Positions 4,018-15,142 of a stretch of 21,607 nucleotides of DNA are shown in pieces; within the stretch, counting starts at the first letter, position 1, and every line of letters begins with the position of its first letter. The notes under the pieces were generated by a model. The model ran no database searches. It worked only from the letters and a program-made list of their open reading frames with translations, and was not told the DNA's origin. The DNA lies in the NCBI GenBank assembly GCA_009782025.1, contig WQUQ01000231.1, positions 1 through 21,607 of the forward strand. The letters are read 5' to 3'. Source of the stretch: Desulfobulbus sp. (GTDB taxonomy: Bacteria > Pseudomonadota > Gammaproteobacteria > Burkholderiales > Rhodocyclaceae). The position numbers were made by a program, and so were the translations under genes.

Positions 4018-4057
4018 GGATACAAATCCATATTAACATTAATTAATTTTTGTATCG
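4018..4057. promoter_or_regulatory. Putative PaaX-type operator A (thioesterase side)
   Basis: Perfect 8-bp inverted arms GATACAAA (4019-4026) and TTTGTATC (4049-4056) flank an AT-rich core. The GATAC and GTATC ends are 28 nt apart. The same architecture recurs at 4387-4425 and, less perfectly, at 15103-15142. The left arm covers the predicted start site and the core covers the -10 of the minus-strand promoter, so occupancy should block the thioesterase gene. Recognition by the adjacent PaaX-like protein is inference. Confidence 0.6.
4023..4056 (-). promoter_or_regulatory. Predicted thioesterase promoter (minus strand)
   Basis: On the minus strand the hexamer TAATAT (4035 down to 4030) is a -10 candidate, placing the start site near 4023 and giving an untranslated leader of about 106 nt. 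No good -35 is seen, as expected if the FNR-type box immediately upstream recruits polymerase. The promoter lies wholly inside operator A. Confidence 0.45.
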
Positions 4058-4074
4058 GTTGACAATAGTCAACC
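4057..4074. promoter_or_regulatory. FNR/CRP-superfamily (anaerobic activator) box
   Basis: The palindrome GGTTGAC-AATA-GTCAACC has perfect 7-bp arms. Its core TTGAC-N4-GTCAA (4059-4072) is the FNR-type layout TTGAT-N4-ATCAA with one symmetric substitution per arm. Its centre (4065.5) lies about 42 bp upstream of the minus-strand start site predicted from the TAATAT hexamer, the spacing of a class II activated promoter. On the plus strand no -10 exists at the matching distance. Confidence 0.65.
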
Positions 4075-4374
4075 AAGCCGGTTGCCGGCCACACCGTTGC
4101 GGAATCCAGCCGCTGAACCGCGTATCTCCGGGTAACCGCCCACTGTGTAGCCCGAACCGAGAGCCGCGATTTTGCCAAGTCAGCGACCGCTCTGCGAAGC
4201 CAGGGCATAAGCCAGAAAGGCAGATGAAATGGATTTCACAGCCGATTACACAGGACGCTGGACAGTGCTTTTCGCCACTCTTTTCCCGCAGGCTGCTACG
4301 AAATAACTATCTTTTCCCGATGGGCATACTCCCAATTATTCGTTGACTCCCCGGGTGATGCATGGATAATCCAG

Positions 4375-4409
4375 TTGATGCCAACATGATACTAAATATA
4401 AAAATATAT
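4375..4409 (+). promoter_or_regulatory. Predicted padB promoter
   Basis: TTGATG (4375-4380) and TATAAA (4397-4402) form a -35/-10 pair with a 16-nt spacer, giving a start site near 4409 and a leader of about 83 nt before the preferred padB start. This is the only strongly AT-rich stretch just upstream of padB. The -10 lies between the arms of operator B. No FNR-type box is seen at the activating distance. Confidence 0.5.
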
Positions 4410-4425
4410 TTTGTGTTTAGTATCG
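4387..4425. promoter_or_regulatory. Putative PaaX-type operator B (padB promoter)
   Basis: Perfect 9-bp inverted arms GATACTAAA (4388-4396) and TTTAGTATC (4416-4424) enclose an AT-only core with the predicted -10. TGATAC and GTATC are separated by exactly 27 nt. From memory, the E. coli PaaX site has been described as TGATTC-N27-GAATCA, which would match in spacing and in four of six arm bases. Binding by the local PaaX-like repressor is inferred. Confidence 0.65.
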
Positions 4426-4488
4426 CTAACAAGGGACACAAACACCGGCGCGGCTGCCGGAACGATAGCGATGTGCCAGCGAGGAGCG

Positions 4489-4584
4489 AGGGTGAAGCGC
4501 GTTTCAGAGTCGATGATGGATGGACATGGCAAGGTTGGTATCGAGCGCCGGGCGGCCGACGCCAATAGGGTGAAGCGGGTTCCA
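4489..4584 (+). repeat. Imperfect 18-bp direct repeat at the padB 5' end
   Basis: The 18-mer at 4489-4506 recurs at 4567-4584 with 16 of 18 bases identical. Both begin AGGGTGAAGCG and encode Val-Lys-Arg-Val in frame. The offset is 78 nt (26 codons). Each copy contains an in-frame GTG. It may be a small duplication that lengthened the N-terminus. Confidence 0.6.
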
Positions 4585-13660: not shown

Positions 13661-13681
13661 ATAAAACGGAGGAATGACAAG

Positions 13682-15013
13682 ATGAAACGGGAAAATACCC
13701 AGGTTGCCCAAACTGCCGAATGCGAGCCGATCGAAAAAGCCAGCCGCGACGAGTTGAGCGCCGTCCAGTTGGCGCGCATGAAATGGTCGGTACGCCATGC
13801 CTACGACAACGTTGCGCACTACCGGGCGAAATGCGACCAGGCCGGCGTCCATCCAGACGATCTCAAGGAACTTGCCGATCTCGCCAAATTCCCCTTCACC
13901 AGCAAGGCGGATCTGCGCGAAACCTATCCTTACGGCATGTTCGCCGTCCCCATGCGGGATGTGGTGCGCATTCACGCAACCTCCGGCACCACGGGCCGGC
14001 CAGCCGTGGTGGGCTACACCAGAAACGACATCGCCATGTGGTCGAAGGTGGTGGCCCGCTCCTTCCGGGCCGCCGGCGGCACGCCCGATGACATCATCCT
14101 CAACTCTTACGGCTACGGCCTGTTCACCGGCGGCCTCGGCGCCCACTACGGCGGCGAGGAGCTGGGCGCAACGGTGATTCCCATGTCGGGCGGGCAGACC
14201 GAGCGGCAGGTGCAGTTGATCCGCGATTTCCGGCCCACCATCATGATGGCCACCCCGTCTTACATGCTGACGGTCGCCGATGAGCTTGAGCGCGAAGGCA
14301 TGGGGCCTGACGACATTTCGCTGCGCATCGGCGTCTTTGGCGCCGAGCCGTGGACCAACGAAATGAGGATGGAAATCGAGCGCCGCCTGGGCCTCGACGC
14401 TCTCGACATCTACGGTCTTTCCGAAGTCATCGGGCCGGGCGTCGCCTGTGAGTGCATTGAAACCAAGGACGGCCCCCATATCTGGGAAGACCACTTCTAC
14501 CCCGAGATCATCGACCCCGTCACCGGCGAGGTGATGCCCGACGGCGAACCCGGGGAACTGGTGTTCACCTCGCTGACCAAGGAGGCGTTTCCGGTCATCC
14601 GCTACCGTACCCGCGACCTCACCCACCTCTTGCCCGGCACCGCCCGCAGCATGCGGCGCATGGGCAAGATCACCGGGCGCAGCGATGACATGCTCATCAT
14701 CCGCGGCGTCAATGTGTTCCCGACCCAGATCGAGGAGATTCTTCTCAGGAACCCCAACCTGTGCGCCCAGTATCAGTTGCAGGTGAGCCGGGAAGGCCAT
14801 ATGGACACCCTCGATGTCTATGTCGAAGTGCGCCAGGATCTCTCGGATCGCACCTCGGAGAAGGAGATGGCCGCCATTGCCGCCGATGCCCGCCACCACA
14901 TCAAGAACCAGGTCGGGATAACGACCAATGTCCATGTCCTGCCGACGGGGAAAATCGAACGCACCCAGGTCGGCAAGGCCAAGCGCGTCATCGACAAGCG
15001 CCCGCGCGAATAA
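13682..15013 (+). CDS. padJ: Phenylacetate-CoA ligase (AMP-forming), PadJ
   Basis: Cytoplasmic adenylate-forming enzyme that activates phenylacetate with ATP and CoA to phenylacetyl-CoA, AMP and PPi, the entry step of the pathway. It has 443 residues, standard for PaaK-type ligases. Visible motifs are the P-loop HATSGTTGRP (about 98-107), DIYGLSEVIGPGVACECIE, TRDLTHLLPG, the hinge region GRSDDMLIIRGVNVFPTQIE, and the C-terminal LPTGKIERTQVGKAKR with the likely catalytic Lys. ACGGAGGA lies 8 nt before the ATG. The 21-bp gap to padI and same strand place it in the pad operon. Sequence alone does not exclude activity on substituted phenylacetates. Confidence 0.92.
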   Translation: MKRENTQVAQTAECEPIEKASRDELSAVQLARMKWSVRHAYDNVAHYRAKCDQAGVHPDDLKELADLAKFPFTSKADLRETYPYGMFAVPMRDVVRIHATSGTTGRPAVVGYTRNDIAMWSKVVARSFRAAGGTPDDIILNSYGYGLFTGGLGAHYGGEELGATVIPMSGGQTERQVQLIRDFRPTIMMATPSYMLTVADELEREGMGPDDISLRIGVFGAEPWTNEMRMEIERRLGLDALDIYGLSEVIGPGVACECIETKDGPHIWEDHFYPEIIDPVTGEVMPDGEPGELVFTSLTKEAFPVIRYRTRDLTHLLPGTARSMRRMGKITGRSDDMLIIRGVNVFPTQIEEILLRNPNLCAQYQLQVSREGHMDTLDVYVEVRQDLSDRTSEKEMAAIAADARHHIKNQVGITTNVHVLPTGKIERTQVGKAKRVIDKRPRE

Positions 15014-15017
15014 GCAC

Positions 15018-15044
15018 GGGGCTGGCCGGCGGAGCAGCGGCCCC
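15018..15044 (+). terminator. GC-rich hairpin after padJ (possible weak transcript end)
   Basis: GGGGCTG (15018-15024) can pair with CGGCCCC (15038-15044), including one G-U pair, around a 13-nt loop just after the padJ stop. No T-run follows, so it is not a classic intrinsic terminator. It could protect the 3' end of the pad transcript or act with Rho. Confidence 0.25.
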
Positions 15045-15102
15045 GCCAGTCAGCGAATGAAATCCGGGAACAGGAGGACAAAACGAACCGAGATAAATTT
15101 CT

Positions 15103-15142
15103 TGATACAAATTAAGCAAAAATAATTTTTAATCTGGATCAA
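15103..15142. promoter_or_regulatory. Putative PaaX-type operator C with overlapping promoter of the ABC transporter
   Basis: Arms TTGATAC (15103-15109) and GGATCAA (15136-15142) form an inverted repeat with one mismatched pair; TGATAC and GGATCA are 26 nt apart, close to the 27-28 nt at the other two sites. The left end continues GATACAAAT, as in operator A. The core is AT-rich. TTGATA could serve as -35 with TTTAAT (15128-15133) as -10, though the 19-nt spacer is long. The left arm also reads TTGAT-N4-ATTAA (15103-15116), one base off an FNR box, with TCAAAT at 15139-15144 as a -10. These readings cannot be separated here. Confidence 0.5.

Follow-up and report, generated by a model that had tools for sequence, protein, structure and literature searches.

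PaaX of Escherichia coli, an organism with only the aerobic phenylacetate route, is a repressor that is released from DNA by phenylacetyl-coenzyme A (CoA). Its solved chain (8a39) is called aryl-CoA responsive by the depositors, and in one E. coli record GATTC-N26-GAATC stands directly before paaX and GATTC-N27-GAATC before another frame, which we take to be paaA. For the anaerobic route, a regulator gene carries the name padR, a name also borne by the PadR phenolic-acid family. In Aromatoleum aromaticum EbN1 this padR (EbN1_C30890) is assigned to the anaerobic pad cluster by co-localisation, and a two-component system and a TetR-type regulator are assigned to the aerobic paa clusters (PMC9765128). 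The words "PaaX" and "operator" are absent from the main text of that paper, whose passages on padR give neither a binding site nor a mechanism; "PaaX" and "padB" are likewise absent from the main text of PMC6449761. We describe here a stretch of 21,607 nucleotides (the window; positions 1 to 21,607 of contig WQUQ01000231.1, assembly GCA_009782025.1, Desulfobulbus sp., placed in the Rhodocyclaceae by GTDB) in which a regulator gene lies close to the pad genes of anaerobic phenylacetate breakdown, together with three long inverted repeats. On comparative sequence grounds, these repeats are very probably operators of the PaaX-family repressor encoded alongside, which would repress the promoters of a thioesterase gene, the padB-J operon and a transporter operon, and would be released by phenylacetyl-CoA.

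The three repeats had been described in an earlier reading of the window made from its letters alone (the sequence-only reading), and all three are present (Table 1), with GATAC and GTATC as ends (GGATC in the third) and, as proposed, one before each transcription unit: the thioesterase gene, the padB-J operon and the ATP-binding cassette (ABC) transporter operon. The perfect arms of 8 bp at site 1 (GATACAAA/TTTGTATC) and 9 bp at site 2 (GATACTAAA/TTTAGTATC) are as given there, and so are the spacings of sites 1 and 2 (N28 and N27); that of site 3 had been read as 26 and is N27. Sites 1 and 2 lie inside the 574-bp gap between the divergent thioesterase gene and padB, and site 3 inside the 214-bp gap from padJ to the transporter operon. 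With AT-rich cores, a long inverted form and pentamer arms about 27 bp apart (N28, N27, N27) near the promoters of phenylacetate genes, they have the features of PaaX-type operators. No further pair of this kind had been noticed by eye, and none emerged: for spacers of 0-200, GATAC..GTATC occurs in the window only at N27, N28, N98, N144 and N145, and the matrix described below shows no fourth site. The encoded PaaX belongs to the same family as E. coli PaaX, at 38% identity, and the sites of the two organisms have in common GATNC inverted pentamer ends, nearly equal spacing (N26 and N27 in E. coli) and phenylacetyl-CoA genes. They differ by one base per arm, GATTC/GAATC in E. coli versus GATAC/GTATC here, and in a spacer that extends to N29 in pad-type sites. 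The sequence-only reading had taken the window sites for the E. coli geometry with a changed arm. The near-equal spacing and the difference in arm sequence stood, the window sites departing from the E. coli arms TGATTC/GAATCA; as to which arm is the changed one, GATAC is the commoner in our sample and GATTC is found mainly at E. coli-type genes.

A genome-wide search, proposed as a check at the outset, shows the full motif to be rare in the source assembly (2,360,265 bases, 79% complete). Exact GATAC-N25..29-GTATC occurs at four places, two being sites 1 and 2 and two being GC-rich places with matrix scores of 6.8 and below 0 (a non-exact place close to the first scores 13.2); with at most one mismatch, GATACA-N26-TGTATC occurs only at site 1 and GATACA-N25-TGTATC only at site 3. 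The matrix, a 13-position half-site matrix, was trained with the window excluded, on exact GATAC-N27..29-GTATC sites from 80 padB loci in other genomes (the best-ranked of 378 candidates; 1,505,712 bases), which yielded 83 distinct sites and, after one GC-rich site (L106) was dropped, 82. Its top three places in the window are the three sites, and the next independent place scores 2.4. Over 200 dinucleotide shuffles of the window the maximum averaged 5.1 and was 21.1 at its highest, and none of 500 local shuffles reached the score of any of the three sites (local maximum for site 3, 18.9). The bare pentamer pair by itself is not specific genome-wide: among 50 whole genomes, hand-picked from the 80 loci, GATAC-N27..29-GTATC occurs at 262 places (0-23 per genome), compared with 59 when the pattern is reversed, is also found in genomes without a PaaX match (0-10 each), and, among the matches listed, is mostly GC-rich where it lies far from pad and paa genes. 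The matrix gains its specificity over the bare pair because it includes the flanking bases and the AT-rich core.

Comparison with relatives, the other check proposed in the sequence-only reading, shows the motif kept in position, spacing and sequence before pad, thioesterase and paaX genes. In the 80 padB loci, whose PadB proteins are 64-78% identical to that of the window and are followed by padC-J in many cases, GATAC and GTATC occur 4, 40 and 39 times at spacers of 27, 28 and 29 (83 in total), compared with a mean of 0.71 and a maximum of 4 at the remaining spacers between 0 and 70; with the arms reversed, all three counts are 0. Similarly, 91 sites score at least 14 on the matrix (training sites included), against 2 in the loci read backwards. 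Many betaproteobacterial loci have one 39-nt site between paaX, on the minus strand, and the padB operon, and one 38-nt site further up. Counterparts of operator 2 lie upstream of padB or of fdhD-padB. Those of operator 1 lie upstream of the FlK gene in L048, L061, L071, L077, L079 and L090, with exact sites scoring below 14 in L082 and L083, and the first five of these loci match the window in layout, with the thioesterase gene divergent from padB and a site for each; in L071 and L079 paaX lies downstream of padBCD-padJ. The padB operon of L056 opens with fdhD (TIGR00129, 9146-9991) between operator and padB, whereas in the window padB comes directly after the operator, and the 38-nt site of L056 precedes a nucleoside diphosphate-forming acyl-CoA-synthetase-like gene followed by the FlK thioesterase gene. 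Other relatives have an equal gap of 0.9-1 kb between operator and padB. The left arm of the N29 operator is preceded, 29 bases away on the paaX side, by an additional GTATC half-site in 11 loci (L056, L064, L068, L069, L070, L072, L074, L075, L086, L098 and L101); at about 34 bases upstream of the operator, it may be a further half-site or a part of the paaX promoter. In the order of the window's own genome, 4 of 399 genomes have padG (own included), and the other three have phenylglyoxylate dehydrogenase genes, only one PadB match (28%) and no PaaX match in the fetched stretch.

The sites are also linked to paaX genes. Searching the loci with tblastn yielded 123 PaaX matches, excluding those aligned over at most 100 residues (e.g. 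the cut gene in L063), and 90 remained after removal of identical upstream regions (the window included). All 32 paaX genes at least 61.5% identical to that of the window have exact GATAC-N29-GTATC 126-291 bases upstream. At 54-60% identity, six of 14 have an exact N28 site (-234 to -237), and one of the other eight (L173) has a site with a single mismatch. Among the 50 genomes, in counts that ignore shared ancestry, a site scoring at least 14 within 1.7 kb upstream of padB is found in 37 of the 43 with a PaaX match and in none of the seven without (Fisher p = 1.7e-5, likewise ignoring ancestry), and at a score of at least 20 in 36 of 43 versus 0 of 7. The earlier proposal of one PaaX-family repressor with three operators is thus strongly supported by comparative genomics, in that the motif is conserved, tracks the presence of PaaX and is alike in geometry to the upstream regions of E. 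coli-type paaX genes.

The N29 sites suggest how repression could be exerted. When these 39 sites are read towards padB, TTG occupies positions 13-15 in 35 of them, with no other offset exceeding 3, and the right arm supplies TATC at positions 36-39, with G next in 37 sites and T after that in 38. The operator thus contains -35 and -10 boxes separated by a 17-bp spacer, and bound repressor and RNA polymerase would therefore exclude each other. The claim that each window site overlaps a predicted promoter did not hold: a consensus scan places promoter-like sequences near site 2 only, one on the plus strand ending 17 bp upstream of the site and one on the minus strand overlapping it. The window sites do not have the N29 promoter pattern, so an effect on promoters would here follow from their closeness to gene starts (67-101 bp).

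The matrix also predicts sites beyond the pad loci. Plasmid pSTY of Pseudomonas sp. VLB120 carries an aerobic paa cluster with an annotated paaX, the product of which is 46% identical to the window PaaX. Across 30,900 bases of pSTY, the highest score (28.8) falls upstream of paaA and the second highest (27.9) in the paaF-paaN gap, and a third place (19.5) is inside an annotated paaK; the predicted sites have one GATAC and one GACAC arm with N27, and the window sites would serve the anaerobic pathway instead. In a Halomonas record (L248), places score 26.3, 19.3, 17.7 and 15.3, and the one at 7888 immediately precedes the paaX match. The GATTC arm goes mainly with E. coli-type genes: GATTC-N26-GAATC stands 35-38 bases before four further paaX genes at 84-89% identity to E. 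coli PaaX, and is missing before one gene at 76% and one at 55%; GATTC-N30-GAATC also precedes L015 and, at about -460, L195-L198. The recognition-helix region reads [VI]RTS[VI][YF]RL[STAV] in genes with GATAC sites versus VRT[AS]LFRLN in GATTC-bearing genes of the E. coli type. The former pattern also appears in L015 and in many paaX genes at which no site was found, and the apparent pairing of arm base and recognition-helix residue is a correlation between clades.

A number of observations weigh against the assignment to PaaX. The genome counts are uncorrected for ancestry. Among paaX genes below 54% identity, only five of 43 (L020, L021, L024, L209, L211) have an exact GATAC site within 300 bases, and three more (L237, L238, L240) do among 30 loci sampled separately; no place scores 14 or more in 27 of the 80 padB loci; and six PaaX-bearing genomes (L081, L089, L104, L109, L113, L117) have no site before the padB copy found, the L089 genome (G465) having a second PadB, 72.5% identical to that of the window over 918 residues, whose frame is preceded by an exact site at a distance of 77 bases. 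One of the control pairs, GTATC-N29-GATAC, is likewise frequent, with 12 occurrences in 12 loci; it is limited to related loci and explained in 11 of the 12 by GATAC being the operator's own left arm and in L065 by GTATC being its right arm. The promoter pattern is less clear in N28 sites (TTG at position 13 in 7 of 40), and the scan finds no consensus promoter at sites 1 and 3 of the window. The GATAC matrix performs badly on the E. coli record, where the paaX site (15.7) scores less than an unrelated place (18.4) and the paaA site falls outside the best six. Upstream of the window paaX, which sits behind coaBC-dut, exact-site and matrix searches find no operator within 1.5 kb; unlike in its closest relatives, autoregulation seems to have been lost or never gained. 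Finally, site 3 has one arm base broken (GGATC), and no orthologous transporter occupies its position in the relatives looked at.

These last two points would fit the view that sites 1 and 2 are true PaaX operators and site 3 a chance near-match. We consider this unlikely, given that the score of site 3 (25.2) exceeds the maximum of its local shuffles, that it is the only near-exact N25 match in its own genome, and that a site scoring 23.2 in L066 (20650-20688) stands directly after padJ and before a tripartite ATP-independent periplasmic (TRAP)-type binding-protein gene (PF03480), a transporter unrelated to the ABC type of the window. Less likely still is the possibility that all three repeats are operators of another regulator, for instance of the FNR/CRP or TetR type, acting on the same promoters. 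FNR commonly controls anaerobic genes, and 58 of the 90 distinct paaX matches are either less than 61.5% identical or the window's own, most of these being without an exact site. FNR sites are short (TTGAT-N4-ATCAA, as quoted in PMC9765128), unlike the 37-39 bp repeats. The repeats, moreover, follow the presence of PaaX, stand upstream of the closest paaX genes, lie beside paaX in Pseudomonas and have a geometry in common with the sites upstream of E. coli-type paaX.

The repeats could also be regarded as hairpins in DNA or RNA (terminators or attenuators) or as chance AT-rich palindromes, since the window cores are AT-rich and the arms complementary. Such a hairpin would close a loop of about 20-29 nt on stems of 5-9 bp. 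The spacing is fixed at N27-29, the matrix scores exceed those of shuffled sequence and the N29 sites hold promoter hexamers; we rejected this explanation on these grounds, and its probability is very small indeed. PaaX remains the strongly favoured regulator.

The features of the window are listed in Table 1. All three domains of the PaaX-family protein score above cut-off (86.5 bits for the N-terminal PF07848, 38.6 for the central PF20803 and 100.2 for the C-terminal PF08223), which bears out the PaaX gene named in the sequence-only reading. The central domain is Cas2-like by Pfam and may have a role in setting the 32-34 bp distance between half-sites.

Table 1. Features of the window, with the evidence for each
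Feature	Coordinates	Strand	Evidence and remarks
PaaX-family repressor gene	2503..3459	+	TIGR02277 294.9 bits (cut-off 264.55), PF07848, PF20803, PF08223; presumed start codon; scanned as longer frame from 2386
FlK-type acyl-CoA thioesterase	3513..3917	-	PF22636 97.9 bits
Predicted operator 1	4019..4056	.	GATAC-N28-GTATC; 101 bp from thioesterase start codon (gene on -); matrix score 33.5
Predicted operator 2	4388..4424	.	GATAC-N27-GTATC; 67 bp upstream of padB start taken (GTG 4492); matrix score 27.3
padB, probable molybdopterin subunit of phenylacetyl-CoA:acceptor oxidoreductase	4492..7299	+	molybdopterin oxidoreductase family matches, none above cut-off; presumed name and start
padC, iron-sulphur subunit	7296..7943	+	iron-sulphur subunit family matches (longer frame), synteny; presumed start
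padD, DmsC-like membrane anchor	7940..8881	+	PF04976, synteny
padEFGHI, phenylglyoxylate dehydrogenase	8941..13660	+	NF045762 (padE), NF045763 (padF), NF045764 (padG), NF045765 (padH), NF045766 (padI), all above cut-off
padJ, phenylacetate-CoA ligase	13682..15013	+	TIGR02155 702.8 bits (cut-off 646.3)
Predicted operator 3	15104..15140	.	GATAC-N27-GGATC; 87 bp upstream of binding-protein start codon; matrix score 25.2
Branched-chain-amino-acid-type ABC transporter operon (binding protein, permeases, ATPases)	15228..20468	+	PF13458, PF02653, PF00005

From this arrangement we infer a regulatory loop, in which binding, dimer mode, repression, inducer and thioesterase substrate are all predicted. 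A PaaX dimer would grip two GATAC half-sites whose centres are 32-33 bp, or about three helical turns, apart, and would thereby block the promoters of the thioesterase gene, the padB-J operon and the transporter operon. Upon entry of phenylacetate, the CoA ligase PadJ would make phenylacetyl-CoA, the presumed inducer by analogy with E. coli PaaX, which would bind PaaX and release it from DNA. PadBCD and PadE-I would then consume the inducer and the thioesterase could hydrolyse CoA esters, closing the loop.

The same operator may connect this regulon with the aerobic route. We found 23 paaA genes in 21 of 51 genomes, none of them in the window's own genome. Seven of the 23 have an upstream site scoring at least 27 within 115 bases, one has a place scoring 23.7 at -283, and the rest stay below 18; of the reversed controls, 1,925 stretches in all, 11 score at least 10 and none as high as 18. 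The seven genomes with such a paaA site (L062, L066, L070, L076, L086, L098, L102) have one PaaX match each and an exact site upstream of padB, where "one PaaX" means one found, because several genomes are incomplete metagenome bins. The paaA-upstream operators of the seven genomes are in L251 (2981-3018), L254 (3021-3057), L266, L271, L272, L274 and L275. With the same operator before the Pad route, which is sensitive to oxygen, and the PaaA route, which depends on it, and with a single PaaX, a substrate signal would open both, and oxygen would later decide which enzymes work. Five of the seven paaA genes of five Aromatoleum/Azoarcus genomes (L038, L039, L041, L043, L049) have no place scoring at least 10, so PaaX control is unlikely there; it is possible for the other two, which have places at about -283 scoring 17.8 and 23.7. 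A second PaaX, with 58-60% identity to that of the window, is present in six genomes. The second paaX of L253 is transcribed divergently from a PaaA_PaaC-family gene, and the stretch separating the two contains a site. A site in L250 is flanked on one side by flavodoxin, paaN and a paaY-like gene (slightly below cut-off), and on the opposite side by a PaaA_PaaC-family gene and paaG. In Sedimenticola (L255, 3048-3084), an exact site lies between paaZ and a 367-residue frame without a family match, followed by a reductase-like gene. On balance, it is somewhat probable that one PaaX with one inducer gates both phenylacetate routes in a set of facultative bacteria, and that PaaX in other lineages either comes as two paralogues or is reserved for the anaerobic route.

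The analysis provides a specific and cheaply testable operator sequence, and a regulon, for anaerobic phenylacetate breakdown, a route whose regulator is, in the passages of PMC9765128 concerned, assigned solely by gene position. It would explain how the thioesterase, the transporter and the pad genes can share one signal, and, because arm base and recognition-helix residues differ in parallel between PaaX proteins of the E. coli type and the others, the rule by which this family reads DNA becomes testable. It further singles out genomes where a single repressor appears to govern the two routes, aerobic and anaerobic.

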